Assembly: GCF_040807025.1 (NCBI RefSeq)
Contig: NC_090981.1
Location: forward strand, 68,333,645-68,397,644
Direction: 5' to 3'
Source: Struthio camelus
Taxonomy: Eukaryota > Chordata > Aves > Struthioniformes > Struthionidae
DNA: 64,000 nt
In this document: in pieces, positions 6,401 through 45,885 of the stretch
How the letters are laid out: every line of letters begins with the position of its first letter
How positions within the stretch are numbered: position 1 is the stretch's first letter
Program-made: the position numbers and the translations under genes
Notes under the pieces: model-generated
Told to the model about the DNA's origin: nothing
The model's input: only the letters and a program-made list of their open reading frames with translations
Databases searched by the model: none

Positions 6401-9400
6401 CAAACTTTTAATATGCGACATGAAACTTCCTCTTCACAAACTTCCGAGATCCTGAAAAGGAGACACTCCATGGATAAAGACAATTCTAATTTTTTTTTTG
6501 AACACAATGATTGCCTGGATCTAATAGGTGATAACGAAATAGCAGAAAGTTGCAACTATGACAGTCCGGATTCATGCTTCCAATTTGGTAACTCCTTTTC
6601 AAGACACACCAAAGAGCCATTTAGAGGTAACTTTATTTCACAAAATTTGTTTTTGAATTTTTTAGGATGTGTATAAATAAATTAAAGAAGTGTTCATTTT
6701 TTAAATCGCAACACGAGCTATGTTAGTTGAACTGCACCGGATAGTAGATTTATTTACTCCCATCTTTGACAAATGATTAAAAGCGCTAACCAGTATTTGA
6801 CCAAGTTAAACAGCTGCTATACTTCAGATTTTCATATATAAATTAATATTTAAGCATTCCTGTATCGCAAAGAATATTTGTTACAGTGTTATATTTAGCA
6901 CCTTACTGCCCGATAATAACAGTAATTCCAAATATTTTAATAGAATTTCAAGCACTGAAGTAAATTATGTGAAGTGTAGACTTGAAAGAGAGAGATTCCT
7001 AAACACGATGTAAATGAATCTGCCAAATTGTTAAGAAGTATAATTTATCATGCAGTCTTTTCTCCTATTCTACACAGCAGGAAAAATTTGTAACCCGTAA
7101 ATTTGGGTTATCTAATGCCCTCAATTTATATAAAGACTTTGTGTGAGACTCTCTCACGTAGCTGCTCTGTGTAGCAGGCGATTGCTTTTCAGCAGCGGGC
7201 GATTCTGCCATGTGGAAACACTGTCTTGTCTTTGTGTCGTGAAATATCGGTTAGATTTGCGTTAATATCGGCAATTAACAACTCTTAAGTATTAATTACC
7301 TTCACTTCTCTCTAGTTCTCCTCATTTAAAAATAAAAACATCTTTTCTTTGTTATGCAAACCATAACAATTGATCTCTCCCCTTTTCCCAGAAGTTATAT
7401 ATAAAAACTAAGTTAAACTATTATTTATGTTATGAATTCAAAGTTACAAAAAGCCTGATTTGCGAATATCTGTAAGCCCCTTACCTAGTGTGTAAGGGGC
7501 ATGAGGAGCTGGTTTCAATATGTGGTTACGTCCTTTCTTTCACCCAGAAATTTTTATCAACTATGAATAGGATAGATATAAAAATAGATGAGAATGTGTC
7601 TGTCATTTTGAGTGCTTGTCTCAACCTATTTTTAAAGGTGAATTTTGTATGTGGTTATATGTATGATATGCATGTAGATGTTTGCATGATTTCTCTCCCA
7701 GGTATCTGTAAAAGCTCATATTAGAAAAACCTATATAAAATACCAGGAAAATTGACCAATAGATTTGCAGTATTGATAGGCAACATTTCACTCTGTTTTG
7801 TGAAATAGTCTTAATTGTATTTTGTACAGCATGAAAGCACTAGAAAAAAATAAATAATTTTGAATGCTGTATGTGATATTTGTATTAAATAAGTTAGGAA
7901 AAGAAATGCTTGACTACTTTAGACACCCTTCTGTCAAGAACCTTTCAGATCCCACTTGGTACAGATGATTTACATGCCATACTGTCGTACTGAGATAAGC
8001 AAAGGGGCTGTATTGTGGCTACCGTATCTGTAAAATATGTGCAGTGCTTTGTAACTCATCTGTAGTAATTTTCTTTGAGCAGTCCGTACAATTGAAAGTA
8101 GTGTGGAAATAATGCCAGCTTGAAGGGGGTCAGATGCATCGTATCTTTATTTTTTAGAAGATCGGCTTGAGCTACTTACCTTGAAGACTGAGAAATCTCT
8201 GGAGACTTCAACTGAAGATTTGTCAAATTCTCTGAAAAATGATGACAGTCCTTCTACAACAGATATCCTAGAAGCAGAAAGATCATGGGAAAATATTCCA
8301 GTTGCTTTGTAAGTCAGCTTAGATTTTAAAATATTTTTTTCTTTTTTTTCACGTAGTTACTTTTGTATATGTAGACTGTAAGTAACAGAGCTGTGGTATA
8401 TACATAAAAGGTTTATATTTAGATTTTTGTGAAGTACAAAACTTTTGCTATTTCAAGGTCAGGAGATTCATGCACTACTTTCCCCTTTTCACCATCTCGA
8501 GAAGAGTACTGTCCGTATTACTTACTGTTGCCTTTTAATAATGTTTCTTGTATGCTGTATCGTTAACATACAAAGATATTACTTCAAGAAAAAAATATTT
8601 AAGGGAACTTAAATTGTTAGCTTTAACATTTTATGGGTTTCCTGGCTAATAGTTGTGGGAAGTGTGCTTTAAAAAAGCAGTATGGCCTTGAGAAATTTTG
8701 GAGTGCTCCGGGGAGTGAAATTTCTATTGTTCAGGAAGTGGAAGGTATATGCTAGAAATCAATACTAGAAGTTTCTACAGCTTTAGTCATTTTTAAGATG
8801 AAAGAAGCCATTTGTGGTTATTTGCATTGTCTATCTGCCAGTTTCCCTTTACCCAGAGGATTTTGAACCATTGGTTAATTTTGCTAATATTTAACAGATG
8901 AGTAAAAATGTCAAAATACAACATTCTTGCAGGATGTTTTTGTTTGTTTGACAATAGAAGAGGTACTATTAATGCTTCTCCTGAGAGAGAGGATGACAAT
9001 CTAACCCCCTGCTAGCCACCAGAATATTCACCTAGGAGAGCACCTTTGGAAATCAGGCTTCATTAATTTCTGATTCCATGAAACTACTTGTTTTTGAGAC
9101 TGTAGAAGGATTAAAGGTCAGCAAGGATAAGGAAACTGTTTTTCTTTGGATGTTGAATACTAATGCAGGAATAGCAGGTGTAAGAAAAACATCCATGTGT
9201 ACTAAATTATGGCTAGGTTTTAAAGAAGCTCCAAAGCGTTAAATACGTCCTTATATCACCTTTTTTGTTCAGTTGCTTTGTTATGGCTACCAAGGTTTTG
9301 ATTATACTGGCAAAACTGGGAAAAACAGTTATGTGGTTCTATTGCAAGCACCAAAGTGCTGACAGGACTACTCAGTGCCACGCAGTGTTGCGTTGAGGCA

Positions 9401-20075: not shown

Positions 20076-20628
20076 TTCCACTGTGGGACAGACAAAATGT
20101 AATAGAGTTTAGTTGCAGCAAGAGTGATTTAGGCTTGTGAAAACGTTTTTAACAATAATAATTTGTAAGTGGTGAAACAGGTTGCCAAATAAGTTGTGGA
20201 ATCTCAATGTTTTTTGTGGTGTGTAAAAGCACATTACACAACATCCAGAAGGAATAATTTAAATATGTTTGGACCCTTAGTATAGGTGAAGAGACTAGAT
20301 GACCTCTGAGGATTCCTTTCTGCCTTTTTAAAAAGTATTTAATGGTTCAGCCTCTATCTCATTGCCATGTTGTGTCTTAGGGTTCGTGAATAACGTTAAA
20401 GCTGAATGTGGAAATTGTCGGGCCTTGCCCTTGTAGTTCAGTGAAGAAGAGGTTTTTTTATTGCAACACGTTGCCATACTAAGTTTCACTACTGTTACTA
20501 CACAAAAGATGATGAGTCATTTCCCTATGCTCTGTCTGTAACATAACTGAGAACATATTGGAATTAACATTCTTTCGGATCACTGTTTTTCTTGTCTTTT
20601 GTGGGCTAATCTATTTCAGCTTCACTAA

Positions 20629-20706
20629 ATGGATAACCAGGCATTTGAAATGCACGGAGAGAGCATACCAAGTTCTTCAAAAACAACAGAATGGCCAAAG
20701 AAAGAG
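20629..20706 (+). CDS. Bicupin gene, first coding exon (cytoplasmic tail)
   Basis: The acceptor CTATTTCAG ends at 20619, with 9 bases of UTR before the ATG at 20629 (G at +4) and donor GAG|GTACGA. It codes 26 residues, from MDNQAFEM to WPKKE, with an SSS cluster, in phase 0. It joins in frame to the next exon, which has no stop before the membrane segment. I rate it less certain than the cupin exons because it has no domain to confirm it, and an untranslated exon upstream was not located. Confidence 0.75.
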
Positions 20707-23700
20707 GTACGAGTCAATTTCAGTTATGATGCTATCAAAATATTATTAATAGAGAGTCAGTTAGAAGATTAAACCCTTGCTTAGTAAATATGATACAATC
20801 AGTTACTATTAGGAAGGTCCTACAAGAAAATAAAAGCTCTACAGGGTTGCTATTGCTATGGTCCTGAAATGGAGTGTCCTAGCTCCACGTGCGCTCACTA
20901 GGATCTGGACTGTGAGGTATGATTCTCCAGCCCCATTTTAGTTAATAGCAAAACTCCTATAACTACTGAATAGTTATCTCTGGAGGATTCCCCATTGATT
21001 TTAATGGGAACTGCTACTTAAAAGCTGATCTCATGGTAATGCTTAACATCTCTACTTAGTTATGTATTTGTGTTCTGCTTCCTTAAAAAAATTTTTTTGC
21101 CTTTGAGAAAAGTCATTCTCTATAATTTTCCCATTAAACTTTTGCTTCTTGGGGTTTGAATTAACTCCATACAATGAGGGCTGGTATATCACTCATAAGC
21201 TGTTACATTTGATTGCAGTCAGCAGTGATGCTTCCAGGCTGTAAATACACCTAGGCTAGGGATTCCTTCACAGCATAACTTGTTCCACACATTGCATTGA
21301 GGTAGAATGTTCTATATTAGTTATTATTATGTAATATGTACAGCAGTCTTTCTATTTTTAAGAATAATTATTGAATTGGTGCCACTGCTGTGAAAATGCT
21401 GTAAATTAAAGGTCATCCGAGTCTGAAAAGTGGGAATTTTGTATGCATTTGGGTCTGAAGCCTTGTTCTCTGGAACTGATGAGACTCTGTGTGGTTTGAG
21501 TGCTACTGTTATGATATTTAATTGAGCACAAGCTTTAGAAAAGGAATAATTTAAACTGTTAAAAGGATTATTACAGAATAGAATAGGGTGATATTTGGAC
21601 CACTTTTCTGCTGGCAAGGGAAATTTATTTGTAGAAGAGATTTTGTCAAATAGATTCATGAAAGAAGGTCATTTTGTTAAAATTGGTAGGTAATTTTCAA
21701 TTTTTTCCTTTCTGATTGTAGAGCTTAAGAAATGAGTATACATAGCTTGATTTTCAGGCACTCGTCATCTGAAAATCAGGCTTTTAAAGAAAGATCAAGC
21801 TGTGCACCTAGAATCGCGAGAGTTTTAAAATGTGGGCCATAGAATGCGGTTTTTATTCATCTGAAGCTGCAATTTGTAAGAAAAAAGATTAAGGGACAGG
21901 AAACTGAAAATCCTCACCAAAATGTTGCTTTGTAGTGCCAGAACACTGTCTACAATTGCAGGGTAGATTAAGAGCATTTTTAGTGCCTTGGCCATCTACA
22001 AAGAACTTCTGTCCTTATGTATGCCAAGGTGCTTCTCCCCTTCATCCTTCTCCAGAGGCCTGAATGTCCTCAGAGGAAAATTAGAGTAAAGAAATGATGC
22101 ATAGAGCAGTTTAATACAGGTGAGATTTCCTCTTCCTGCCCCATCTTCTCCTCACCAGGGAGCTGGGCCACTGAGAGCCTTCTGTGAGATGTGAGGTAAA
22201 GCAGACAGCATTTTCCTCCTCACCCCACAGGGAGACGTTTACCGTGGGTTGATGCGGCAGGTCTTTGGAGTTTTGAGATACAGATTAGAAACAGTAATGA
22301 AAAAACGTTAAGTGTTTGGAAGACCAGAGGATGAGGAAGATGTGCTTTTACTTGGCGGAATAATGAAGGGACAGCAACCATCTGATGTGATTCGATAACA
22401 TACTTTGTAAACAGTTTCCCTATGCTGAGCCCAGTAAGTTGGCTCAGAGTGTGTGTTCCTTTCTGAAAGGCTTACTGTTTTCATTACAAAGGAACTGCTA
22501 TGGTTTGTCCTGTTTGTTATAGCTGTTACTGATTTTTTTTTTTTTTCTAAAAAAGATATTTCAGGAAAGAAAGAGCTACTGCTCCCTAATGAAAATATTT
22601 CTAGTTTGTCTGTTGGCCTGTGTTATCACCACCACAATAGGAGTGCTGGCCCTGTCTTTCATCTATGCAGAAAACATTGGCTTTCTAAAACAGACAGATG
22701 TTAAAAACTCGGACACAACCCCCCCGAAAGCAGATGAAAAAGGAGTGGATATCAAATTCCGGTTCCTGAATCAGCTGGGAAAATCCAAGGTAAATTGTTC
22801 TTTTTGTGCAATGATATTCTAGCATTATATATAGAAATATAATGAATTCATCTCACCTACCTTTAATTATTTAAGCACTAGGTGTCCAGTTTAAGCCTGT
22901 CATCCAGGCTTCTTTTATAATCAATGAAGAGAGATACAAATCTCCAGACCGCAGTTCATTCCATTTCATAACAGATGTTGGAGGTGATACAGGACCACGG
23001 AGATTCCTCTGAGATAGCTAAACAGTTGCTCCAACAAATTCAGCTTGCAAGATAAGGCAACCATTTTATGCGTGATTCTGAAATTACAGGGTAGGAAATT
23101 CTGAGAAACATAAACAGAAAGCTCAAATCTAAATATAAGCTCAGTAACCCACTAACATTTTCCTTCTTATGACTGAATTCAAACAAACGCTTATTTTGCA
23201 AGAAGAAATTAACTCCATGGTCTTTTTTTCAGTGAGCTAAAGTGAATTAACTCACAATGTAATGAACCCTACCAATTACATTGTTTCTGTTCAGTTGTAT
23301 TTTCATACTTAGAGAAATGTATCCTTTGAACAAACTCTAAAGACATATTCCATCTTACAAATTTATCTTTACATAGAAAATGTTTTCTGATTAATTCTTA
23401 TTGCAGCTTTTCAGCGAAAAAAGAGAAAAGGATAGATTAGATAGTAGAACGCTTCAACTAATTACAACTCTTATACTACTTTTAGATGTTAGATTTAAGT
23501 ATGTAATACTCGTGAAACAAAGGTGTTTTTTAAGAGGAGAGCATCCCTTTTAATATGCTATTCCTGAGCGCAAGGTGATTTTTTCAAGTATAAAACATAT
23601 TCTAGAGACAGTACAAATATTGGGGAAGGAACAGCTTCAGATACAAATAATTTGCCACTGTTTCTAGAGCCTTAATTCAGGAAAATGTCTTACTCAGGAA

Positions 23701-26700
23701 ATTTTCTAAATGTTTTGAATCCAAAAATATAAGCATAAATATAACTGATTGCCTAAATCGGACTCCAGAATGACGTAAAAAGAGGAGCAGATAATTCCAT
23801 CCTTAATACCGCTATTTAGCTCTCATTTGTAGAAACAATACCATTACATCATAACAGGAGACAGTAATTGTGAAATGTGACTAAAATACATGCAGAGAGA
23901 ATTGTCACTGTGAAAAACAACGGGTCCCTTCAGTATTGCCCAGACTATGCATCTTCCAAAGTATTTTTGGATTGTTTGGTCACCGCTGTCCACAATTAAT
24001 AAAATTCTCTTTTGTCACTAACTTTACAGGTACATCGTTTCCCAGGTGGTGATATTCAGTGGGCAAGATTCAGGAATGATGTAAATGAATATCAAAGCGT
24101 TGAAGAAATGGAATTTGGAAAAAGTATCAATAACTTTCGCTCTAAAATGACTTTTGGAACCTTACGAATCAAGAGCGAAGGGCTTCGAGTTCCCCACTGG
24201 CATTTTAATGCTAATGAACATGGCTACCTGTTAAAGGTATTATCTGGTTATTTCAGCTCTCCCAATTGGATTTGCTGTTTAAAGCATCATGTATATATAG
24301 AAAATGTAAATATGTAAACAAAAATGTGTATATACATTATATACAAAAGTTAACTAGTGATAAAAGTAGAATTATCATTGATTCATGTATGACATGAGTT
24401 TCGTCACTTCAGATAACATTCTTGAACTGAGGTGCTTAAAACAGTCTATTTAATGTTGTTACTTGCAGAAGTGCCAAGCACTTGTAGCTTCCAATAAAGT
24501 GTAACAACTGAAGTCAGTGGAGATATGGATGCCTGCAACATGTAGAATTTTATCTATTTATCCAAGAGCTTACAATGATTTAGGTAGTTAATATTGTAGA
24601 ATCATCACAGAATCATAGATTTGAAGGACTGTTAAGGTTATTAAGAAAGCCTCTGCCTTCATCCTGTATATTGGTGCAGGATGAGAAATACCTAAGCATT
24701 TCTGAGAGCGCATTGAATCTGTTTTTAAAACCTTCCATGAAGGACCTATTACAAGGTCCGAAAATAGTTGTCTCCAGTGCTTTATAACACAAACCATTGG
24801 AAAGTTTGTGCTGCTGTACAACTCACGTTGTTGTTTATTGCAAAATATCTCCTTGTTTATCTCCAGTGGCTGTGGAGACCCTCTGATCATCTTTGTTTCT
24901 TACAACAACTGTTTATATGTGGAAGACTATTTTGTTCCCATGTAATCTTCTCTTTTCTAGACCAAATATCCCTCCCCTTTTTTCCCAAAAAACTCTCCTT
25001 TGAAAATGTTTGTCCAATCTCACCTTAGAGACAATTTTCAATTCTTTAAAAATAAATAAAGAAAATAAAAAAGATAAATACAAACTCACAGTGAGGAAAA
25101 ATTTGAGCTGGCATGTTAATCTGAAAAAAAAGATCTTTCTGTGTAAGCGCAGGTACTTAGATATATCTTGATTTTTGATTGTATTTCTAAGAATACTTAT
25201 TCATATTTTTATTAGAGTATAGCTGAACAGCTCCAACTGGATGGGGGGACATCCCTGGAGTGAGGCATTCCATAGACACCTAGCCCTCTCTCCAACTATT
25301 TTTGGTTAAAGATGGCTTCTTTATGGCTATTGACAGCCTCTTTAATAAGAAGTGGCTTAAATATGAGTAGTGTGTATTTGTCACACGTTCTCTAAACCTT
25401 CTCAAATTTCGTCAGTCAAAATACTACTCTGGATTCAGTTTCACAAAGGCTTGTTAGAGAGAGAACACTGGTATTGGTTTTCCCCTAACAGCCTTCAGAT
25501 TCCTTGCATTACTGATTTGTCATACACAGGTTACAGTAAATAAAGTCTCTGAGGAAACTTTCATTGCTATCGCTATGTTACAGGGTACTGCCTGGATTGG
25601 AGTAATTGATGCAGATGACAGCGTGGTTACCACATACAATGTCACAGCTGGCCAAGTGATCTTCTTCCCTAGAAACACTTTGCATTGGATAAAGAATGTA
25701 GGAAAAGAAGAGTGTATGTTCTTGCTGTTTTTTACAACACATGAAGAACTTAAGACCTTGGATGTAGATGATGCATTTTTCTCTACCCCAGAAGATATAG
25801 CAGCGAGAGCATTAAAGGTCTGTACAGTAGGATAGCTAGCCTCTATCTAGTCTTCTTGACATTACTATGTCAGGTCCAAGCTCTCTGTATCTTTTCTAGG
25901 GAGGTTCCCTAGCTCAGCTGCTCTCTTCAGTCCTACCAGCGTGGAAGGATGTGCAAGTGTCCCTTGTGCAACACTGTGCCACCTTGTGTGTTCTTTTACA
26001 AACACAGAGGAATAAATGACACAGTTTTCTCCAAGAAACTTTTTCTCCTCCCTTTTCACGCTTGTCCCAAACTCATGGAGGAGTCTCCACACTTCCAAGG
26101 ACAGAAGGGAAAATAACAAAGCGAAGTCCAAAGTACCTTCCCGGTAGCCTCTTAGTAAATTTTGTGCTATCAAGAGGCCTCATGGGAAACCATAGATAAG
26201 GCCATCTTCTTGCTGAAATGTCTCTCATTTGCACCGACCAGTTGCCAAGGTCCTTTGACCAAGAATATGGCCACAGAGCTTCTGCTCAGTCTGAGCTGTC
26301 CTAACTGAGAAGCAAGAGTAGAGCAAAGGAGCAAAATGAAGTATTCATAGGGGTAGGCAGTTAAAAAGATGAGGTATGTCCCCAGGGCAGGATTTGTCTA
26401 TCACCATGTATTAAGGTGGGATACTTGATGAAGTACAGTTTTGATTCCCCGGTTTGCTTTGTATATCTGTCAACTTAATATGTACTATGTGTCCTGCAGC
26501 CACAGGGTGGAGTTAACTTTATCAGAACATTCAAGAAACAAACAGAAGATCAAGCCATTAACCTCCCACCAAACTTAAAAGAGCTCGTACAGAATGCCAG
26601 CTATGTGCAATCTCCAGATAGCCTTGTATGGCGGTACTTCTACGACCTCAAAGGTATACATCTAAGCACTTTGTATGTAACAGGTTTTGGTGTTTACAGA

Positions 26701-29535
26701 GAGGAAGATCTGTAATTGGTTCACTGAAACATGCAATAAAAAGTATATAGAAGAGTGAAAAGAATTTAAGGAAGTAAAAAGAAGAAGAATGGAAATCTGT
26801 ACAGACTGGACCTGCTGATTAACAGGGAGCCCCGAAAAAAACATGACAGATGACAGAATTTAATTCTAAGTACCACCGTAAAAAACAAATACAGGTCCAG
26901 AGCTCCACATACAGCTGATGGAAGTTAGAAGAAATAGATATGTGACAGAAATCTTTACACTTGGGTCAACATGTTCTTTGACCTAATCCTCTTTAACAGA
27001 CAGCTAAGAAGTGGCCAGACTCTATGAAAGCCTCTTTATCTGGCCAGGACCTATATGCTTTCAGCAAGGAAGGCACAGCCCATGGGTGGACTTATTAGCT
27101 GTATTCTGCTTGAAGATCTAGCTATGCCAAGACAGTGCTTCAAGAGACAAATAGGCCAGGTTTGCAGCTTGTTTGCATTGGTGGTGCCTTGCAAACTATT
27201 GGAACACACCATTAGTGCCATAAAGGTTAACATGAGTGAATATGCTGAAACTTAGTGTGTTCTCTAAGTGTATTGTGACTGATAGTAATCATGTTTGTGA
27301 CAGGAGAAAATGCTGTGTAAAGGCAGATATCTGCTCATGCAAGAGATAAGTAATTTAAATTCAGGAAAAAATTCTAATATGTGATTTTTGTTATGGTGAT
27401 CTGTCTGTGCAAACATACAGTAAACTGGATTAATTGTTCCTAGTGTGCATAGCATCTAGTGCACAAAGGAATAGTAAGCTAAGTGAGCTTCCCTTTGGGA
27501 TCCAGAGTCTCATAAGATTTGCAGCCTGAAGTTTAGTACACAGTGATGATCTGAGGCTGGCCAATACACTAACAAGCAATGTTAACCAAACGTTGTTGAA
27601 AATGCTCATTTGTATGTCTCTCTGTTTTTTAGGGTCAGCAGAATACCCTTTTCCGGGAGGAATCTTCCAGTGGGCTCGCTACCGCATAAATGGAACTGGA
27701 CTGAACAAGACAGAGAAAATTTTTAGTGAGTCACTGAATAAGGTATGTGCTTTCGGTTGGATACTGTAGCTATTTTAACATAAGGCATAGTATGCAATGT
27801 GTGGGGGTTTGTTACTGCTTTGTTGTGTTTCAGGGATATAACAAACTTGAGGGACTTTCTGAACATTTTTGTTTTGCTTTTCAGCATGAAAATACCCTTA
27901 CCTTAGCAACTCTCAGAATATTCAGCAATGGACTGGGGCAGCCTCATTTCCACTTCAATGCTAATGAGATGGGTTACGTCATTAGTGGCTGTGGAAAGGT
28001 AATTTGTTACATCAGTGAGGGATAACTCACTGGAGTTTTGACTGTATAACAGTTACAGAGTTAATAACGGATTCCCATCCCTGATTATTAATAATATTAC
28101 AAAACTTTCAAGGTCTACTCAGTCCTTCTTCATACAAAATTTTTCTTTCCATTACATTTGTGGAAGTTTATCTAATCAAAATGGAGTTATAAAAAGAGCA
28201 GAATGGGCCTTAGCAAGCTGTTCAGCAAAAAATGCCCATGATAGGAATTCCCTCTCTCCTGGATACTGGGAGTATGAAATAAAAAACAGAAGAAATTATG
28301 ATTTAGTGCCTCTAAGGAACAAATAAAAACTTAGTGAGAATTAAGAATTAGAATATGATATTTTATTATGTGTCTTTCACTCAGTGCAAATTTGAAATGA
28401 AAAGGTAGCTGAGATGGGATGATGGAACTTCATAATGCAAGGAGTTACCATGTTCTTACTTAGGAATTTGCCTTGGACCCCTATAACCTTTCGGGATCTC
28501 TGTGAAAATAATGACTCTGCACTAGCTGATTTCAGTGCAATGTTGGGACTGTCGCTGAGTATTTATCCAATAATAGCACACTGACTATTGCTATTGAATA
28601 TTGCTATTTAACTTGCTATAGGTTGGGGTTATTGCATCTGATGTCACAGCCAACTTCAACATTGACATTGGAGATGTCATATTTTTCCCTGTTGGAAGCC
28701 AACATTATATCAAGAGCGTATGTGATGAGGATTTATTTTTGATTCTAGCCTACAGTACAGGCAACCAGGTGAGAATCCGTATGGACGGGGAGTAAAAAAT
28801 GTTCAACTGTGCACAAGCCTATGCTTTTTTTATGGATGTAAGCCTTATACTTTGGTGTACACCTCTCAAAAGAAATTCTAAGACTATCTGAAGTGCACTG
28901 ACAGTGAAAATTCTCTTCTGGGGTGCATGTCGACGAGTAACACCTACTAAAACTGTACTTGCGAACAGGAGGTGGGGAAGACAAGGGAAAGGTCTGTGGT
29001 AGGGAACGGTGTGCTTCTGCGTGTGTGCTTGTAGGTATGTGTGTGGAAGAGGGAGAGGGATGGAATTCAGATCATGCTTGTGCGTGATGTGCTATTGGTG
29101 TTTAAGAGACAGAGCTTGTCAGTGGGTGGACTGGACAGGCCGTGGCTCCTCACAAGCCCAGGGACCGCAAAAGGGGAGAGGTCTTCACAAGCCTCGAACA
29201 GGTCTACATGCTAGCAGCCAGAGCAAGGATATATTAAGCTGAGACTGTATGTACCTGGTGATATGTACCTGGCTTATAATGAGTTACTTATATATTTTTA
29301 TATTCATTCATATTCATGTTGTATTTGATATGCACTTCAATATTCCATATTATTAATCTTGTAAAAAAAAAAAAAACAAGTCATTGTGATTATTCTTAGA
29401 ATATTGTGTTTTTCTTTATAGCTGGAAACTCTTCGTATGAATGACTACTTCCATGCAACAGCAGATCATATCCTTGCTCAGCTTTTTTTCAAGGAACAGA
29501 ATGAGTTTAAAAAGATCCTACAGCCTTCTAAATAA
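20629..29535 (+). CDS. Type II membrane bicupin (oxalate decarboxylase/spherulin-2A-like) at the DYNAP position, ten coding exons
   Basis: Exons 20629-20706, 22565-22789, 24030-24236, 25584-25817, 26500-26653, 27633-27742, 27885-27998, 28622-28768 and 29422-29535 join in frame to 1383 bases, 460 residues. (That is nine coding segments; an untranslated exon upstream is likely.) Layout: Lys/Glu-rich cytoplasmic tail 1-36, membrane segment about 37-60, linker, cupin 1 about 103-248, cupin 2 about 304-450. Metal ligands are complete in both: His157, His159, Glu164, His204 and His357, His359, Glu364, His402. Each domain opens with a PFPGG/RFPGG..QWAR repeat, so they arose by duplication. Four N-glycosylation sequons (189, 280, 319, 324) fit a lumenal or extracellular location. 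Such bicupins bind Mn or similar metals in bacterial and fungal oxalate decarboxylases; the vertebrate substrate is unknown. The membrane exon resembles mammalian DYNAP (see findings). Confidence 0.93.
20707..22564 (+). other. Bicupin gene intron 1
   Basis: 1.9 kb intron. It holds a near-perfect 14-base inverted repeat at 21744-21782 and otherwise nothing recognisable. Confidence 0.6.
21744..21782. repeat. Inverted repeat with CTGAAAATCAGG core
   Basis: AGCTTGATTTTCAG (21744-21757) and CTGAAAATCAGGCT (21769-21782) are complementary except at one base, around an 11-base loop. The core TGATTTTCAG/CTGAAAATCA is familiar from old palindromic amniote repeats, so this is probably a fossil element. 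Confidence 0.55.
22565..22789 (+). CDS. Bicupin gene, membrane-anchor exon
   Basis: Acceptor ATTTCAG after a T tract; donor AAG|GTAAAT. It codes residues 27-101: a basic stretch ERKSYCS, then the hydrophobic core MKIFLVCLLACVITTTIGVL and on to about residue 60, then a polar linker. Basic residues on the N side predict N-in orientation. If the first exon were not used, translation from Met35 would give a signal-peptide-like start instead. Confidence 0.9.
22790..24029 (+). other. Bicupin gene intron 2
   Basis: 1.2 kb AT-rich intron; nothing else seen. Confidence 0.6.
24030..24236 (+). CDS. Bicupin gene, cupin 1 motif-1 exon
   Basis: Acceptor CTTTACAG, donor AAG|GTATTA. Residues 102-170. It begins VHRFPGGDIQWAR and ends with HWHFNANEHGYLLK, an HxHx4E metal motif (His157, His159, Glu164). 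Arg154 sits three residues before the first His. Confidence 0.95.
24595..24960 (-). mobile_element. CR1 LINE 3' end, minus strand, in a bicupin gene intron
   Basis: CAGAATCATAGAtttgaagg at about 24607 is the complement of the CR1 terminal repeat. Further right, the text around 24718-24750 (tttttaaaaccttccatgaa) matches the complement of the CR1 3' UTR in diverged form. The left edge is clear; the right edge is uncertain. Lies between the exons ending 24236 and starting 25584. Confidence 0.7.
25584..25817 (+). CDS. Bicupin gene, cupin 1 motif-2 exon
   Basis: Acceptor TGTTACAG, donor AAG|GTCTGT. Residues 171-248. It contains GQVIFFPRNTLHWIKN, which provides the fourth metal ligand His204, then HEELKT, where Glu225 may match the lid glutamate of bacterial oxalate decarboxylase, and a helical STPEDIAARAL linker. 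Confidence 0.95.
26500..26653 (+). CDS. Bicupin gene, interdomain exon
   Basis: Acceptor TCCTGCAG, donor AAAG|GTATAC (phase 1). Residues 249-299 and one base of Gly300. It holds a helical linker and an NAS sequon at 280, and ends in WRYFYDLK. Confidence 0.93.
27633..27742 (+). CDS. Bicupin gene, start of cupin 2
   Basis: Acceptor TTTTTTAG, donor AAG|GTATGT. Residues 300-336, including YPFPGGIFQWARYR, a clear repeat of the start of cupin 1. Sequons at 319 and 324. Confidence 0.94.
27885..27998 (+). CDS. Bicupin gene, cupin 2 motif-1 exon
   Basis: Acceptor CTTTTCAG, donor AAG|GTAATT. Residues 337-374, with HFHFNANEMGYVISG giving His357, His359 and Glu364. Confidence 0.95.
28622..28768 (+). 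CDS. Bicupin gene, cupin 2 motif-2 exon
   Basis: Acceptor TTGCTATAG, donor CAG|GTGAGA. Residues 375-423, with GDVIFFPVGSQHYIKS giving His402. Confidence 0.95.
29422..29535 (+). CDS. Bicupin gene, last coding exon
   Basis: Acceptor TTTATAG. Residues 424-460, a C-terminal helical tail ending QPSK, then TAA at 29533-29535. No ER-retention signal or GPI signal is seen. Confidence 0.94.
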   Translation: METLRMNDYFHATADHILAQLFFKEQNEFKKILQPSK

Positions 29536-33400: not shown

Positions 33401-36400
33401 CAAGTGCAAGGTGGGCTGCGACTTCCTGCGAGGAAGCAGCGCAGTGAGCTGTGGAGGTACGTGCACGCTGTTACGGGGGAGCTCTGTCGGACACAACATA
33501 CCACCCTTGCTGTGTCCTGTACTGTGTTGACCAGCTGTCTGCACTATAATTTTGGGGCATTATTCCAGGTCATTAATATCACTGTTCTGCAAATGCAGTT
33601 TGCCCAGTAAAACTGATATATTCAATGAGTGGTGAAATATGCTGTCCTCTTTTGTTTTCCCTTGATTATAAATTAATTAGAGGATGGACCAAAGCAGTTT
33701 TAATCTTTCCTAATGCTGCCAGTCTGGGATGACAGACTAAGATGTAGTGTGGTCTTGTTGCTACATGTGAGAGACTCATCTCAAGACTCTCTTAATCCTC
33801 AACCCTCTATTTCCTTGGAGGAACTATCAGTCAGGTATTGTGCAAAAAGCTTTTCCAGCCATGGTGATGACAAGCTCTTTTAGCTGATGTGGAAGAGATG
33901 GACTCGAAACACATCTAACCATCTGTGGTGAGTTTGGTCAAAGCAGATCAGACCAAACTTCTCAGCTCCGCTCCACGAGGATGGAAAGGTTGAGTGCTGT
34001 TGGAGTCACTGCTGTTCGCAAGACTGTTTCTAATACAGATAGCTTCTCACATTGATTCAGTTCTGCTTTCCTGTTTCTTTTATCTCTAAAACCATCATTT
34101 TTATGTTCTTAATAAGGTGACACGGAAAGGCCTTGTGGTTGTGTGTGTGGTGTAAGGTGGTTTTTCTTCTGTGTGTGTATTCTTGCTCAGCTGGCAGAAC
34201 CATCCATTTTAATTCTAATTCCAGCTAATAAAAATATAGTATTATCTAACTCCTGTCTGAGACTTGGGATCTCAGGCTGACTATGTGCAATGCACATCCA
34301 TCCTAAATGTCCCTGACTTTGCAAGTTCAAAACGTGGGGAAAACTCTCAATTGACATGTGAATGGAAACTTGAACTGTCACTTTCTCCAAATACAACTAT
34401 ACTGAGGAAGTGTGATTCACTTGAACCTGGAGGTGTTATTCAACGCAACGATAAGTCCATCCCTGGGGGTTCTCTTGGAAATAACTGGGGTAAAACAGAA
34501 CAAGCCTTAGTTAAAGAATAAAGCTGTGTTGCCCCTTGTGAGAAATATGAATTATGGCAGATAATACGCCTATATAGCTTCCAAGTGAAGAAATATTAAA
34601 TGGAAGAGACCTCAGCATGTTTGGGTAATTATAATCAGAAGCAGTAATAAAATGGGTGGGATGCTATCAAAGTATTAATTAATGAAATGTCCCATGGGGT
34701 GTATTCACAGTGGATGATTTCTTCGGGGGTTTGTACCACACGTTCAAAAGAAGTGTGCAGTGTTTCCCAGCGGGTGAATTTCAGCTTCGCGTTGGGGAAG
34801 CGAGGTGATATCAGAAAAGCTAAAAGACACTTTATATGGCTTTTAGGCCAAATTATGGGGGGAGCCAGGGCTCAACAGAGGCTCCTGCAGATCCTGCTGC
34901 TGGCCGCACCTGAGCGCGTTAATGCGAGTGCATGCAAACGCACCCCGCTGGTGTCACCTGGGGCTGCACAGGCGCCTCGGCTCGCAGGGAAGGACTCGCG
35001 TGGGCGCTCGGCTCCTGCTCGAGCACGTCCCCGAGCTGAGACCTGCAGGACTGTTTCTCAGCCATGAGAAACTGCAGAGCTTAACCAGGAAGAACTTAGC
35101 GTTTAATGAATAGGAGGCTCAAACCCAGCTTTGCCTTTTTTTGTTGGCTGAAGAGGGATTCTTCTCGCCCCCTGCCTATCATCTCCTTGCCGCCCCGACG
35201 CAATATGTGCTGCTACCTCGGGGCAGGGCTGCGGGTTGGAAAGCAAAGAGAACCAGGGCGTCTTTGTGTTCCCAGAGGGTGTTTTTTTTGTTTTGTTGAG
35301 GCTTTATTAGCAGAGAAAGTGGAAATTCCCTCTAAGAGTGAAAGGCAGTAAACTTCAGCGGTTTGTTGGTCCTTCAGCCTGGAGTTCATCCAGAGGACGC
35401 CGAGGGCGTTTCAGAAAGGCGTTTTATGAGGCCGGGCTGCTTCACTGCCGAGGTTTTGAACAGGATAATTTGCAGAGTTGCTGGGTCCCTTGTGCGTTTG
35501 GAGACGTTTGCACGGCTGTTGTGTCCCGAGTGACGGCCTAACCACCGAAAAGACGTGGGAATGAATGAATCCATGCTGGACGTCCTGGCTTCTGCGGCAG
35601 CGAGCCTGTGCAGCTCAGCAGAGCCGTGAGCGCCGACTGGCAAAGGGCGAACGACAACCGGAGGGAAGTTCTGGGGGTGACGCTGGCTGAAGACGTTCCT
35701 GGTGCCTCGCTTAGGTTAGCAGAACATACTGCTCGCTCCTGACGGCGCAGCAGGAAGCCAGGTTGGCCCTGGTGGGACCCGGGGGCTGCTCCCACCACCT
35801 CCCCCAGCCCTGCAAAAGGATCGGTAGGTTCAGTGTGTCCAAGCAAAGCAGCTGAAGAGCAAAACGGGCAAAAGCACCTTTTTTGCAGGTCTGATTGAGG
35901 TGGCGAGTCCAACAGACGAGTACTGCTCGGCCTGTCGTTGGCTGCGTGAAGGGAGATGGAAAAGGCCCTCCGAAGAGAATTGGAACCACCAAGTTAATCC
36001 AAAATTTTTAAGAATGAGTGGAAAGCGAAGCACTGAAAGTGCCTCAGATGTCATTCTTGAGCAATTCTATTGCTCACCAGAGCAAACGCAGAGAGCTTTG
36101 AACTGCTTCCTTGTCCGTCCGGGGCATGTGCAACCTGCTCCGGAAAGGTCATCCCGGGGACAGCGGGTTCCTAGCAAGAGCACTTCACGAGCAGCACCAT
36201 CCCACCGTGATGCAGGACAGTTTCCTGAATGCTTCAGCTGTTGAGGGGAAATTCCCTCTCTTTAGTTGAAACCTTTCTTCCTTCCTTCCTCTGAAAGTGT
36301 GTGTAGGGAGTTGGGGGTCTTGTTGTGCTTCTTGCTCTCTGGCCTGAACTTTGCTTGTGCAAAGCCTCCTGCTCGGCTCTGGAGGTCGTTGGCAGCCCAT

Positions 36401-36650
36401 GTAAGCGTGTTGTGCAGGATCGAGTCCGTTTAGCGGAATGCCCAAGTTTGATGGGGAAAAGGCCAAATCCGGCACTGCTGTAATGAGGCGCTAATCTGGC
36501 TGGATCCGAGGAAGCGGCATTGAGTGCGGCGTTGGTGCTCTGAGCCCTGGGGGTGCGTCCCGCTGCCTGTGGCCAGCTCCAGCTAATCTCACCCCATCCC
36601 CGAGGACAGGAGCGTTTCACTCTTCCCTATTCTGGTACAATGCATCAGGG
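30491..36650. other. Intergenic region, no gene recognised
   Basis: The base composition turns more GC-rich and patchy. Open frames occur on both strands (for example around 30500-31080, 31750-32170 and 35540-36050), but they overlap each other and show no domain or splice support. No repeat family is recognised with confidence. Confidence 0.5.
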
Positions 36651-39600
36651 CCATTGAATCATGCACTTCTAAATTTCTTCTATTTTGTTTATACTTATGT
36701 ATTTTTTTAAAAATAAAAGGCAGTAAATGCTCAAAGAATAACTAGATACAGAACTTTTGTGCTATACACAATGCATTTACTGCAAGTCAAGTCTCCAGGT
36801 TTTTTTAATGTACTAAACTGTATTTAATGGCAAAAATGCATAGTACAGCTAAAACCCCAAGTGCCCTTTTTGCAGGGCCAGAGCCCCCACTCTGCCCTGA
36901 CATTTCCTTGACCTGAGCAGGGATGTACCTGTGCCGCGGGTGCTGCCGTACGGGGTGGCCATGCTTGTGGCCTGTGGTTCCCCTCTCATTGAGAGGCTCC
37001 CTTGGGCAGGGTGCCTAATGGGGCATTAAGCCAGCTTTTATAGCATAATAATACTTTTGAAAGCAGTTGCCATTTAAAAAAAAAAAACCACACACACACT
37101 TTAAGCATTCAATAAAACACTCTATGGCTTTTTTTCTGCCTCCTCCTGCTCAGAGGCATGCACTTGAGCTTGAAGTTGCTTACACTTTTCTAGGCCTGGC
37201 CCTGTGTATTATGCATGGTGCTTAAATAAAACCACATACGTTTTACAACCTGGCGAGCGTGGTTTCCTTGTACAGAATATTTGCATGGCGTTGCAGACAA
37301 AGAAGGATTAGCGCAGATTACGGCCCAGAATTGCAGACGTGGCCCAGCTACGCGGGTCTCGTGTCTCACCGTCCTGCTCGCCGGGAGCGTTTTACCAGTC
37401 ATGCGAGAACCCCGAAACTTTCACAGGCGTTACTCCTTCAGACCAGCTAAGGGACTGAGTGGTGAGCTGCAGCTGCTTTAGTGGGAGAAGAAATTCAGGA
37501 AGTGCCTCTTGACCAGGGGCAGCCCTTCCCCGGGGCATGGCGGGGTCTGCTCCCACCGGGAGCCCCTAAACCTCCCTCATGGCAATGGGGACAAGCACGG
37601 GCAGCAGGACGCAACGGAGGCAAATAGTAACAATTCATTGCCATGTGTATTTAAAAAAAAAAAAAGAAATCCATTGAAACTTGGGCTTTACTAATTCTTA
37701 AGCAAGTTTTGGAGATCTCGTGCTTTTGTGTGTGTACCCAGCAGCCCTCAGCACTGCTTGTACCCACTGTTCCCAGGCTTGCAGAGAAGGGTGCTCGGCA
37801 CCTCAGACTGAGCACAAAGGGAGTAACAAGGTTCCTTTGAAGGAAATGCACTTTTTTCCCACTATTTTCCAATGATTAACAAATAAATAGTGTCATCGTG
37901 TTCATATTACCTTGCTAATGAATAACCTATACAGTCCTTCTTGCTGTACAGTGCTGTTCTGCTGATCTTGCATCGTGTTATATGCCTCTACGCGCACATC
38001 TACCGCAGCATTTTCTGTTGAGATCTCCACCAGCTTAAAAAGCTTCAAGCCTGTTGACAATTCAGGTAGGATCTCAAGGGGACTTGATGCAGGATTATTT
38101 ATTAAACTTGCTTAGAAAAATCTCAGTCCTGCACCTTTTTTCTCATGTGAACGAGTCATTATGGCACAGGTGAGCTTTATGGAGCCCAGGAGACAAAAGG
38201 CAATTTCCTGGGCTTTGTTGTGTGTTCTGATTGCAATCACGTTTGAAATGTCTAGATATTTTATCTTTATCTAACAATGCAAATATAAGCAAACGGAAAA
38301 TCTAACCCACGCCTAAATCCCAAATAGCCCTCACAGGATTAAGTATTACTGGTTTGATTATATCCTTTGAAGGAAAGCCAATATTTGCTACTTTTGAGTT
38401 AGTTCTTGATGACTGCACTGCTGGAAGCAGTTGGCTTAGTTTTTACATTCTGATCTTACTAACCGTAAGGGTTGCAAATCTCTTCAGGACCCAAAGTTAC
38501 CCACTGTGTCAGGAGGGACCTTCTTAACACCCTCTCAAAGGTATAGGCCAGGGCAGGTAGGTCCTTGGTGGATTAGCTAGTTTGGACAAACAGGAAGAGT
38601 TCAGGATACATGAAGACAGTACATTGCTCATCCCCAAATTTGGAAGTAATGGGGATCTAGTAGGGAGAATAACGGGCGTTTCTGCACTGAGAGCAGTTGG
38701 TGGTTTCTAGGGACCAACATCCATCCCTCTGGGTTACTTCTATAGGGCCAGTGTTGACATATTGAGAAGAGGTTTACGCAGCTGGTGGCCGCAGAGGGAC
38801 TTCCTGCAGCGGGCAGGGGGGAGCGGTGCGAGCCGACTTCAGGGAGCCCTCGTCCCACCTCATGGCATGGAGAGAGCTGCACCCTGGTGAGCACCTACTT
38901 AGGCCTGAGACTGGTGGGTGGCGCGTTGGTCGAAGTCAGCAGCTGGTCCAGGAGCACCCAGGTAACTCCCACCTGGTCTGACCCTCTGGGGAAAAGGAGA
39001 AATTCGAGTGGCTCCGGGTTTCTGCCAAGTGTTGCTTCCTCGCAGCACTTGCAAACAGGAGCCGGGGTGGGCTGCCATGTCCTGCACCTGGACAGACAGA
39101 TGGACAGTTCCTGCAAGCCAGTGTGCACGCGCTCGCGCTCCACTCTCAATGGAGGATAAACGGTGTGAACGTTTTCATGTTGAAGGGGAGATGTCCTTCT
39201 CTCCTTAAATGCTGCAATAAAAAACAGGCTGGGCAGCACCCGCTCTTTGCGCAGCAATGTTTGCAGTCTTTTTGGACTCATGTGGAAGCAAACATAACTA
39301 AGCATAGACTTGCACAGGAGCCAAAATGTGGTTTTAGTTTGGGAGTTACCACGGATTTCCCTGCTTTCATGGCAGCAACCCTGCGCCTGCCATGGAGCTG
39401 TTGCACCGTGGACAGGTTTGTGATGCTAGTGGCGCTTGACAGGCCCAGGAAAGGGTGTCTTTTTTCTTTAACTAACAAATGAAGTGTGCATTTATTCCTT
39501 TTTGCTTAGTTGCTATTGTTGATTGCTTTCACTTCTAAAAGCCGCCCAAAGGCGAGGTTTGGGTGGTAGACACAGTCGCTGGGTGACACCTAGAGGAAAG

Positions 39601-42600
39601 CTGGAGATATCACCCCTTCCAGGAGGCACTGGGCAGTTACAAAGAGCTGACTGCTTTTCAAGCTTGCCTAGATCAAAGGAGATCGGCCAGCTCCTGCCTG
39701 AAACTCTGCAGCTCCCGGAGCCGATCCTCCACTGCAGCGGAGGGCCGGCAGGGTCCGGGCTATCAGATCAGAAAGTGGAAGCTACCCAACTGGCGAAGGC
39801 TGCAGGCCCCAAGAGGAAGGCTCCTGCTCCACCAGAAAATTCACCACTTGTTACTCATAATGAAGATGGCTGGATGAATTCCCACATCTGGCTGCCCCAG
39901 GCTCCTACGTGACTACTCCAGTGCAAACAGGATCCCTCGCTCCTGTCACTGTGTGTGAAACCTGCCCTAACTTCCCTACAGATGTCCCCTGTGCTGGCAT
40001 CTCCAGCTGCAGGAGCAGTCTCTACTGATGTCTCACAGGTGTCTTGTCTACGTAGAGGTGGTTAATTCTGCAGCAGGAACCGTTCAAAGGAGTTTCTGGG
40101 ATGGCCACATCCTCCACCCAGGAAGGGCTTCCCAAAGCGCACAGACTGGGAGAGCGCATGGAGAGACCTAAGCAAAGCAGGAGATGTCACGGGGAATCAT
40201 GAGGACCATTCAGAATCCCCCCTGGAGAGCTCTGGTGACAATTAGTCAAATGCTTTGCTGTGCTGGTGGCCAGGAGCTCAGTCAGTGACCCGGTCCACAC
40301 TCTGGGACCAGCCCTCATCTCAGGGCTGCAGAGACATGCTGGAGAGCTCCAGGGCCACCTGGGCAAGTCGTGACTTCAGTGCCCTGGGTGCCCCATGGGA
40401 CCTAGCTGCACCGCAGCTGCAGCGAGGGCACCAAGGGGACCTTCTCCCTGAGAGCCTCCTGGTGAGGCCAATCCCACCACACAGCCACAGCCTGGCTCTT
40501 GGAGTTAAGAAGTTCCTAACCCCACTGCTGTGTCCTGAAAACGGCTGCATGTCTGCCGGCCCTCGTGCCATCTGCCTCTCACCCACAACTGTTGTATTTC
40601 TTTTGGAGGACTTTCTTGCTGTGTCTCACAAGCCATAAGCATCCCGTTTTGCAAGCCACCTTGCCACCTGACTTCTGGTTCAATCAGCAATTTTGCTTTT
40701 AGCGGCTTCAGAAAGGGGGTTTACACCCGCCCCTGCACCCCTCATGCTTCCCACCTCCCCAGCGGCACAGTCGATGCCTCCTGATGGTGGCGGTGGCATG
40801 CCCACAGGCGGTCTGCTTTTATGAAAAGCATAATTTCATAGCAGGCTGGTTGCTTAAGGGCTTTAGGTCCTAACCAGTAAGCGAACTGGATGGAGCTGGG
40901 GGTCTCCCGAATCTTTGAAAAGCAGCATGATGTCGTCTTGGCTCCCATGAGCTCATCCAGGCACCTGTCCTGTCCTGGTGCCATGTCCCGTCTTTCACTT
41001 CTGTCCTCTTCTCTTGCTTTGACCCCTCATTATTTACTTATATGTTTTGTACTTTTTCTGTCTCTGTGTGCTGTCGACGGCCTCTGTTTGCTGCCGGGAG
41101 CAAGCGATACCTGCCCAGGGCACCAGGCCTCGGGAGCCCGCGCGCTGCCAAAGAGGGAGGTCAGCTCGCCCCTAATGTGGAAAAAGAGGGGCTCCCCCAA
41201 AACAGCTCTGTCAGGAGGGAGGCGGTGACATGACATCCCACAGCAAGGGCCTGTGTATGTCCTACCAAGAAACTCGTTGGCCCATCAGAGAGGCACAGAA
41301 AAAATCCACAGCATGGTTATGGGAGAGAGGCAACCGTAACCCCCTGGAGACCCCCGTGAAGCTCTTGGTCCTGGCAGACGTTGCCTGGGATGGAGCTCCA
41401 GGACCTGTCGGTGCCAGCGTGGAGCCGCAGCTGCCCGTGCTTGGACGCAGAGGAGCAGGGAGCTCATGCTGACTCGCTCCTCGCCAGGAAGCAGAGCGGT
41501 TGAGGCCGCCGGGGTAAGTGTCTGAGCGACGCGTTCGGATCAGGCAGCCAAAGCACACTCCCTATGGGATTTGAGCTGTTGGCGGAGACGTCTGGGGACT
41601 TGGTTCTTGAGAAGAAGGTAATTTAGGATAGAAAATGAGAAACTTCAGTTGAAAATTGAGCATTTCCCTTTAGAAATGCCAGCTCTGTATCTTAGGGATG
41701 TCGCTTTGTTTCGTGCGTTACCTCTTCCGCGCTTCCATGGGGCTGAACCCGGGGAAGAGCCGAGCGAGGGCCTGGAGGTGCCTGCAGGGGCCCCAGGAGA
41801 TAATCTTTGGCTCAGATGTTTAACAGAAGAGGTTACAATAGCAAGCCAAAGCAGATGCTCTTTTGCAGATACGATTTGCAACCAGATAATGGTTTAAGAG
41901 CTTCTTGACGGCCCTTTGTGAAGGGCCTCCAAAGACCTATGTTTTGGTTTGCATAGAGTCCCTACTGTCACTGCCTGTAATTTAGGTACCTGATGGGAAA
42001 GATGAATTTTAACTAGAGAGCAGTATATACCAGAAGCTTTTGCAATCCCCCTTTGCAGCTAGGATTCGAACGTTACAAACCTAGCCCATCCGTATTGCTT
42101 GCTGAAGCTGTATTTTACTGCCACTTGTTGATCAGATTATTCTGCAAGTGACTGATAGCACCAGGATTCTCTTTTAGGAACAACTCTGAGCTGTTGTAGT
42201 TTGATGTCAAGGTAGTCACGGGAGCGGGGCAGGGTAGTCTCAGTGCAAAAAGCGTGAGTCGTGCCTCTGCCGCTGGGGGCCAGTGCTCACCACGTGCCAG
42301 GGGGCCTTTCTCCTCCCTGGCATAGGGGCTGGATGGGGTCATAAGCAAGCAAGCTGCAGTATGAAATGGAATATTTTTCATTCCTACTGAGTGGCTGTTT
42401 GCAGCCAGGGACCTCTCCTTTTGTATTTTAAGTGGGTTTAGCAACGGTCATCAGCCAAGACAGCATCACGTGTTAGGACGCTACAAATGACCGTAATGCT
42501 CACTAGCAAAACAGGACTAGTGCATTTTATTTGTTTTGCTTGATAATTGTGTATTTTAAATGGAAGGTCACCTCCAAATCAAAGGCTGATTAAAAGAGGA

Positions 42601-45600
42601 GCAGTATTGAGAAATGCAAGAGTCCCATCCCGCCGGCCGGGGGCTGGCACAGGCTCTATGCAAAAAACCCAGGCTGCCTTTTAGCAGGGAACACTGTGGT
42701 GCTTTCATTTAGTTGGGCTTGACTACTGATGGCCTAGTTTAGTTTTACCTTCTGGTTTTCTATCCTTCCCTTTCTGCACCGTCGAGACACTGGTTCCCAT
42801 CTCCTCTCTCAGCCCTTCAGCTCTGCCCCCTACTTGAGCTCACTTCCCTCTCTCCTATGTGCATACGGTGTCGCGTTGGTTTCCCCCCACGTTTGGGGCA
42901 GTCTCACACTACGTATGTGCCACGTACTGTTACTCTCCTTCTCCAGGTCCCTAAAAAAGAGAAGTATTTCTTCCCATACAGGCAACAACTGATCGCTTCA
43001 ACAGCACCCTAAGTCCTTCTAATGAATCCCAGGGGGTCACAAATTTGGCTTTCACGCCCCAATTCTGTGTTGCATCTGGCTCCCATGAAAGATACAGCTC
43101 AAGTGCTCTTTATTTAAAAGATAGAGCTGTTTGCACCCACACAAAGTGCTCGTTGCAAGCAGCAACAGATTCTTGCAATCAGGTTAAAAACCCAGGCCCA
43201 GGACATTCTCCATGAAGCATTCACTTTTTGAGAAGTACTGGTCCTACCAGCTGAATACCGCCCTACAATAATGGAGTGCAGAAACCTTTCCAAAACCTTG
43301 GCATGGTGACAAATCACTTGATTTGACTATTTGTAAAGGTGCCCCCCCACATGCATTAATTTTTCCTTTTTTTCTTCCTGCCTTCGTGGCTTTTTGCTTG
43401 ATGCGGAAGGTGACTAAGCTCCTTGGAGGTGACTGAGCATACAGCAGCATTGCTCAGCACAGTTTGACTATATCAGGAAGTAGAGATTCATTCACCAAGA
43501 TTTTGTGGTCTCAGCAGTCACCACCCACCTAGCAGCTCAGTGATGCGTCTATGAAGTGCCAGAAACACCTTCACGACTGCACGAGGTATTACATGAACAG
43601 AACCTATGCATCATGTTTAAATGCCTCTCGTACAGGAAGCACATCTGTAATCCAGGCGCTCCTGTGGATCTGAGATCCTTTGCAGGTTTTCCTTGGGCAG
43701 TTTCTCAGTGACTTCGGTGGGAAATAGGGAAAGCAGATTTTAGCTTAGCATTTCAAAAAACCTGACTTCCTGAAATCTTCTCCAGTTAAGAATACAGTGA
43801 TGCCCAGCTGGGCCATGTGCTGCAGTAAATAAAAGCCAGCAAGCCTGCACTTTCTCCAATCTCTCAGCAAGTTTCTGCTTGAACTGCTTCACTATATTTA
43901 CAACCCCACACCCCAAAACAGAGATGGACAACACAAAGAACAAGGATTTGAAGCAATATGCCATTGAACAGTAACTATAACAAAAAAATACAGGAAACCC
44001 AAGTCCTTATGTACAGCTGAGAGGCCACAGTAACCTCTCAAGGAAAAGAAAAACCTCTTCTCGAGCTTCTTGCACTCATTGGAGCAGTGGTTCATTACCT
44101 GGAGGATCTGGGGACCATAGGGCATCCTCCTCAGCAGGACGTCTCTGCTCTACACCCCTCTGCGAGAGGATTTCCACAGGCTCCTCACTTGCTGCCTTCA
44201 GGAGATGACGCACACCTCGGCTGGTCGGTTGTGGACTGCCCTTTTGGGGAATCTCCCCCTGTTTCAGCGGGGCTAACTTGCCCGACAGCTTTGTTCCTTG
44301 ACTGATGTTGATGTGTTTGATTATAATTTAGATATTTTAACTACGTTTTACATCTGCATTACTACATAGCACCGAAGTGCCTGGTAGAAGTCCTTGCATA
44401 GGAAGATGACCATGCCAATAAAATAGCCAGTAGGTATAACAGCCCCTCTGGGCAAGGAGGAAAACCCCTCACACCTGCGGAATTATATCTGTCATGAAGC
44501 AAATTAAGGTCTCATTTTGGTGTTAGTGCATGGGAAAAATGGGGCAAGAGCTGCTTTTCTACCCTACCCCTGTGCCTCAGGCAGGGGAGCCAGGAGGTTG
44601 GAGGAGCTGCTCTGGGTGCAGCAACCAGCCAAGCTCTCCAGGCCCCTGTTGGAGACCTCCACAGCTCCTCCGTCTTCGTGGTGGAGTGCATGGAGACAGG
44701 CAGCCCCCAAAATGCCATTGCCTCCTCTGTGAGAGGCTTTGGATGCTCTCAGTAGCAGGTTGGCCAGAGGACTTTAAAGAGAAAACACTTTCATGCCTTA
44801 TGCAGAACTTTGCTTAGTGCAGCTGCTGCTGTGGTGTGCCTTTGGGAAGCCCTTGGAGGCCCTGTGAGGGACGCTGCTAACTGCCCTGGTGATCCGTCAA
44901 GGCATAAATGAAAGCAGCATTTCTGTGTGAAACCACCTTTGGTTTTCTTTTTCCTTGATTTCAGTGAGATCCTTAAAATGCAGCAAGCTTAAATGAGCTG
45001 AAGTCTTTGACTCAGGTACATGTGAGATAAACCCGTTGTTCCACAAAATAGTATCACGGAGCAAAATGCTGGCACAGAACAATACTTTCCCCCGAAAAAA
45101 GGGAGCAGGAAAATGTTGAGCAGGTGACACAGTGGAAGAGTGCAGGGCCAGCTCTGTCCTGGTTTCAATTATAACGGCCACTGTTATTCCTGTCACAGCA
45201 GAAGTATTTCTATATAACATGCCATCCAGTGGTAAATCATCAGGACTCTCCAGCATTGCTCACAGTACGTAGGTCGGAGCCTTTCCAGAGCTGTCGTCCT
45301 CTCCAGGATCCCGGTGATTCGCAGCACGCTGAGCGCAGCCGACACTGCGCCAGTCCCGCAGCCCTGCACCGCCTGCGGCCCCCTTGCCCCCCCCCCAGAG
45401 CCATTTTCTGTATGCACAGAGAATGCAAATGTTCATGCATATGTCAGTTTACTGTTGACATATGCATATGTCATATGACTGTTAAAGTACCTGCAGGATA
45501 TAAAGCTAAACCTACTGTTACTTCCTGTATACATATAGATTCGTGATTCTTTTTAGATATGTCATTGCAGGGTAAAACAGACTTCTCAAAAATGGAGATC

Positions 45601-45885
45601 TGTAAAGCTGGGTAGTACCTTGTATTACACCAGCAAATATAAGGGGGAAAGGACAGAGAAACTTCCCAGGACGCAGCCACGCTTCAGGTCTAAAGCAGAA
45701 CAGCAGCTACAAGCTGTGCAGGGGCTGGGGCTGAAGGAGCCCGTAAATGGCATGGGTGAGCTGCTAACGGCATGGGTACACTCTTGGTGAAGACACCTCA
45801 GTGCCTGTGGGCTGCAGAGCAGCAAGTGTGATGCCAATTTGCAAAGAAGGTTTCGGGGGGTGTAGAACAGAAAAGCTTGGGAAAC
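36651..45885. other. Intergenic region, no gene recognised
   Basis: Mixed composition with many overlapping short open frames on both strands and no protein family recognised. Short CA and poly-A runs lie at about 37075-37100. A tRNA-like B box on the minus strand near 42060 lacks the rest of a tRNA. Confidence 0.5.

Follow-up and report, generated by a model that had tools for sequence, protein, structure and literature searches.

The locus described here raises the question of whether mammalian DYNAP is what remains of a gene that once also encoded two cupin domains. We analysed a 64,000-nucleotide stretch of the ostrich (Struthio camelus) genome, hereafter the window (contig NC_090981.1, forward-strand positions 68,333,645 to 68,397,644), which carries a plus-strand gene of nine coding exons (20629–29535). 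In a splice-site-consistent model of the window, these exons maintain an unbroken frame and encode a protein of 460 residues with a short N-terminal tail, a single membrane segment and then two cupin domains, in the order tail MDNQAFEMHGESIPSSSKTTEWPKKE, membrane exon ERKSYCSLMKIFLVCLLACVITTTIGVLALSFIY and the two cupins. A preliminary description had proposed that this bicupin gene and DYNAP are orthologues and that the mammalian gene kept the tail and the membrane exon while losing both cupins. Human DYNAP, a cancer-linked gene, is studied for the transforming activity of its protein in human cells, and PMC8329785 describes the physiological role as undetermined. The window gene is well supported as the sauropsid orthologue of mammalian DYNAP: the membrane stretch, the 5' intron phase, the position and the strand all agree, and nothing that contradicts orthology was found where we looked. 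We consider the full explanation likely, namely that a DYNAP orthologue with a predicted enzyme in its first cupin domain persists in the ostrich and that the mammalian branch lost the exons following the membrane exon.

The membrane exon and human DYNAP

The membrane exon is the second coding exon (22565..22789, plus strand; 225 nucleotides, 75 residues, phase 0 at both ends), is delimited by GT-AG splice sites (acceptor tatttcag, donor gtaaattg) and has a translation that begins ERKSYCSLMKIFLVCLLACVITTTIGVLALSFIYAENIG; when read from the sequence, it proved to be exactly the single exon first described. Searched alone, it matches the Pfam family CLLAC (PF15675) with an expectation value (E) of 5.1e-15 and 55.2 bits, far above the curated cut-off of 25, and in the full 460-residue protein the CLLAC domain lies at residues 32–60 (E 6.7e-14). 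For this exon the search listed one further family, CD20, whose match (E 0.021) stays under its own cut-off. The CLLAC model comprises 30 positions, represents the membrane segment only and is silent on the cupins. The human DYNAP sequence used for comparison is a presumed one, including the letters of its membrane stretch; it scores 63 bits against CLLAC over all 30 positions.

Alignment of the window exon with the presumed human exon 3 gives a score of 93. Among 5000 shuffles confined to the membrane part, the mean is 32.4 (standard deviation 6.1) and the maximum 66, none reaching 93, and 71 membrane-like segments of open reading frames from the window and further loci score at most 40. CLLAC likewise matches none of eight copies of the window exon with a shuffled membrane part, four of which gave one weak match to another family below cut-off. 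From Tyr-Cys to IGVL (YCSLMKIFLVCLLACVITTTIGVL, 22577..22648, plus strand), 18 of the 24 aligned residues are identical, with a four-residue gap excluded from the count. When the whole presumed human protein was searched against the window with tblastn, the membrane exon was matched at E 1.3e-6 and all other matches were no better than E 0.12. The earlier statements that the hydrophobic text agrees beyond chance and that the alignment should exceed shuffled membrane segments are both borne out, the observed score lying far above the shuffles.

Chance hydrophobicity as the source of the resemblance is ruled out by three comparisons: with the shuffles, with the membrane-like background segments, and with the rest of the genome as scanned for CLLAC. 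A broader version of this explanation, in which a chance or convergent hydrophobic resemblance arose at a coincidentally matching position, draws on the shortness and hydrophobic nature of the homology and on the human membrane letters being presumed ones. Neither set of shuffles reproduces the match, however, the rest of the genome does not exceed 20.9 bits with CLLAC, and phase, position and strand agree as well; chance or convergence is thus largely refuted and hardly credible.

Splice phase, uniqueness and position

In the human gene, the membrane and Ser/Thr-rich regions are encoded by exon 3 in every isoform, the end of exon 1' coincides with a codon boundary, and skipping of exon 2 leaves isoform b 55 residues shorter (PMC8329785). 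The whole-codon end of exon 1' together with the 55-residue loss in isoform b therefore indicates that residue 101 is the first of human exon 3 and that this exon begins in phase 0, and by our own arithmetic the products of 497 bp (isoform b) and 319 bp (isoform c, primers 0–10) given in PMC8329785 fit such a start. The comparison of intron phases that had been proposed thus succeeds at the 5' end, which is in phase 0 in both genes, and has no counterpart at the 3' end, the human membrane exon being the last. The window membrane exon starts four residues ahead of the Tyr-Cys pair, and the human one presumably three residues ahead of it.

The genome scan, over 1.45 gigabases (Gb) in 262 contigs, scored 67 candidates against CLLAC and listed 16 matches with E no higher than 10. 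CLLAC exceeds its cut-off at two sites only, namely this exon on the window's contig (C40) and its counterpart on a second contig (C41), with 56.3 bits each, and the next-best score in the genome, 20.9 bits, falls below the cut-off. To the CLLAC profile, the 1.45 Gb ostrich genome thus shows no second CLLAC gene that could be a separate DYNAP; the preliminary description had named such a gene beside the bicupin gene as an argument against orthology, and the scan found none there. In a protein search of the genome for a second bicupin, the nine exons on C40 and C41 account for 18 of the 20 listed matches, and the other two are a single weak pair (E 0.85), so that no paralogue emerged. The gene copy on C41 is intact, with 99.83% identity over 9338 bp and two amino-acid differences. 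Among the genes examined, near-identical pairing is restricted to those of C40 and C41, and this near-identical pair suggests sex chromosomes. A passage in PMC5327424 describes DCC, from the same block, as Z-linked in birds and autosomal in other sauropsids and mammals.

A single CLLAC locus in this genome is also compatible with a lost twin. Two tandem genes may once have carried the same membrane exon, with birds retaining the one that encodes the bicupin and mammals the one without cupins. Such hidden paralogy requires that a gene was duplicated and that each lineage then lost a different copy at one spot, whereas orthology of a single gene accounts for position, strand and phase more economically, and we regard the paralogous history as quite improbable.

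The neighbours of the bicupin gene are those expected of DYNAP. The human gene order is given in a passage of PMC4868023 as C18orf54, DYNAP, RAB27B, CCDC68 and TCF4, and human DYNAP is placed on the plus strand because its promoter, according to the breakpoint description in that passage, lies at the end with the lower coordinates. In the window, a LAS2 domain match lies upstream of the bicupin gene (8154..8264, plus strand; model positions 37–73 of 74, 32.1 bits, cut-off 27), and at E up to 0.01 the genome holds LAS2 only here and at the C41 counterpart. LAS2 is taken by us to be the domain of the C18orf54 protein. Downstream, a search with a presumed human RAB27B sequence gave 104 genome matches, five of which are ordered on C40 on the plus strand within 8.4 kb, spanning residues 1–218 at 60 to 100% identity, with the first exon identical at 52 of 52 positions. 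These RAB27B coding exons begin 76.7 kb downstream of the bicupin stop. A probable RAB27A lies on contig C12, and the top-scoring single match, at 40% identity, is a Rab-like frame on contig C1 that runs without interruption. As regards these two neighbours, the position and orientation first claimed for this gene hold, with LAS2/C18orf54 upstream and RAB27B downstream, all on the plus strand as in the human order.

Direction of change at the DYNAP locus

With fair confidence, we read human DYNAP as a de-catalysed remnant of an ancient vertebrate membrane-anchored bicupin resembling oxalate decarboxylase (OxdC), from which mammals lost the cupins and whose exterior arose by read-through of a splice donor. 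In this scenario, the exons after the membrane exon would have been lost on the mammalian branch, and the membrane exon, no longer spliced at its former donor, would then have extended into new Ser/Thr-rich sequence and so become the last one. The remaining membrane peptide would have been free to acquire the roles with dynactin and Akt that are reported for human dynAP. By our own arithmetic on the numbering of the presumed human sequence, the human Ser/Thr-rich region presumably starts at about residue 172 and the donor-equivalent point lies at about residue 178, an estimate that assumes no other length change and includes a part that is unaligned.

The opposite direction supposes that the amniote ancestor had a short DYNAP-like gene and that sauropsids gained the bicupin exons by exon shuffling or by fusion with a neighbouring gene. 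A membrane exon of phase 0–0 is easily joined to other exons, and the demonstrable sharing is limited to the membrane stretch, both of which suit a gain. Yet the cupin part is interrupted by several introns, and the genome shows no donor bicupin elsewhere; a gain would need a donor that later vanished. A scan for a prokaryotic source of the bicupin, which reaches close relatives only, confirmed none of its 14 pattern matches in prokaryotic contigs. These introns and the lack of a donor bicupin in the genome search favour loss of the cupins in mammals, and a gain in sauropsids appears unlikely. In a separate scan of viral contigs with the membrane exon, 19 pattern matches were obtained and none was confirmed.

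Several points weigh against human DYNAP being a reduced bicupin. At the level of sequence, demonstrable homology extends over only about 30 residues, which make up the membrane stretch and its Tyr-Cys pair. Compared with the products of human exon 1' and exon 2, the tail behaves as shuffled sequence does (fractions of shuffles at or above the observed score, 0.52 and 0.17), and the same holds for the part after the membrane segment compared with human residues 138–172 (fraction 0.65). Counterparts of human exon 1' and exon 2 were sought in the window by tblastn of the pieces, the best among the matches listed having E 0.25 for exon 1' and E 0.17 for exon 2. The proposal that DYNAP kept both the tail and the membrane exon is therefore upheld for the membrane stretch and not for the tail, which shows no similarity to the human DYNAP sequence used. 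The presumed human letters agree with print outside the membrane stretch only: the length of 210 and residues 92–100 and 206–210 match the length and the primer translations of PMC8329785, and a third primer there reads the isoform-c start MEYQLL, in agreement with the published start. The same paper prints 649 bp for an isoform-c product where arithmetic gives 662, which may be a slip. Furthermore, the comparison covers the ostrich gene and human DYNAP, and loss rather than gain is the direction inferred from these two. The lid of the predicted enzyme, EELKT, matches the SENST lid of OxdC in the Glu and the last Thr only. Lastly, that the DYNAP genes already published from birds are this same bicupin is inferred from their position and the uniqueness of the locus.

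The assignment of DYNAP in birds is indeed not new, and orthology is already implied in annotation. Passages of PMC5327424 (2017) place a bird gene named DYNAP between STARD6 and RAB27B, describe synteny across human, mouse, platypus, painted turtle, alligator, ostrich, duck and other birds in a region highly conserved in amniotes, and count DYNAP among the genes of the block missing in Galliformes and Passeriformes. Corresponding passages of PMC5327406 (2017) report a duck orthologue for each gene of the human locus and record DYNAP from those Galliformes that were examined as well as from some Passeriformes, so that the two papers conflict over DYNAP in Galliformes. Duck DYNAP also appears among right-ovary genes in a passage of PMC10332064. 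The bird DYNAP genes of PMC5327406 and PMC5327424 belong to the same block as the window gene, and the passages concerned name the gene without giving its domain content. Our literature search returned no paper containing both whole words DYNAP and cupin, and among the matches listed neither a vertebrate bicupin nor a relation of DYNAP to one is described. If the bird orthologue is a membrane-tethered bicupin, the history of DYNAP becomes testable as that of an enzyme reduced to an anchor on the mammalian line. Such an orthologue also points to a little-noticed oxalate-decarboxylase-like protein of vertebrates, and it warns that one gene name, DYNAP, may cover two very different proteins.

The bicupin and its known relatives

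All exons of the gene lie on the plus strand. The first coding exon (20629..20706) encodes the 26-residue tail MDNQAFEMHGESIPSSSKTTEWPKKE and ends in phase 0. Within 20610–20628, an acceptor-like AG stands nine bases 5' of the ATG, and an in-frame TAA immediately precedes the ATG; at least one untranslated exon is therefore probably present further upstream. Following the membrane exon, cupin 1 is encoded by two exons, of which the first (24030..24236) contains the metal-ligand motif HWHFNANE with an Arg at position -3, and the second (25584..25817) contains the fourth metal ligand, His204, and, by alignment, the lid residue Glu225. A linker exon (26500..26653) ends in phase 1. Cupin 2 starts, according to the gene model, in the exon at 27633..27742, continues in an exon with the motif HFHFNANE (27885..27998) and contains its fourth ligand, His402, in the next (28622..28768), and the last coding exon (29422..29535) contains the stop codon. 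Elsewhere in the window, long open frames are numerous on either strand at positions 35000–46000, the kind of pattern that a G+C-rich stretch would give.

The Pfam family Cupin_1 matches the protein in two stretches (E 1.3e-33), and the closest solved structures are bacterial oxalate decarboxylases (OxdC, E 2.6e-16). The metal ligands are complete in both domains, being His157, His159, Glu164 and His204 in cupin 1 and His357, His359, Glu364 and His402 in cupin 2. A vertebrate bicupin (24030–29535) whose cupin 1 retains the OxdC-type metal ligands together with the Arg and the lid Glu is unusual regardless of any link to DYNAP. The active-site Arg92 and lid Glu162 of OxdC align with Arg154 and Glu225 in cupin 1 of the window protein, whereas Arg270 is replaced by Gly354 in cupin 2 and Glu333 has no equivalent there. 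Because Arg154 and Glu225 are kept in cupin 1 and their equivalents are missing from cupin 2, we favour a single working active site, predicted to lie in cupin 1 and to act on a small carboxylate. Cupin 1 would accordingly be a Mn-dependent enzyme for a substrate such as oxalate, and cupin 2 would be structural. As its lid sequence differs, the window protein is, on sequence, not classed as an oxalate decarboxylase.

Human dynAP is a type II membrane protein with its C-terminus outside, and it is reported to bind dynactin and to promote Akt phosphorylation (PMC8329785). Since the window protein has the same membrane segment, preceded by a basic KKEERK stretch, it too probably adopts a type II topology, with the cupins in the lumen or outside the cell. 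The window gene and human DYNAP (C18orf26) have in common the CLLAC segment, the phase-0 start of the membrane exon and the placement between C18orf54 and RAB27B. They differ in that the human protein has 210 residues, is encoded with the membrane exon last and ends in a Ser/Thr-rich exterior, whereas in the window gene the first coding exon supplies 26 residues, and the membrane exon is followed by seven coding exons that encode the two cupins. With Bacillus subtilis OxdC (1j58), the window protein shares two cupins with metal ligands kept in both and, unlike OxdC, it bears an N-terminal membrane anchor.
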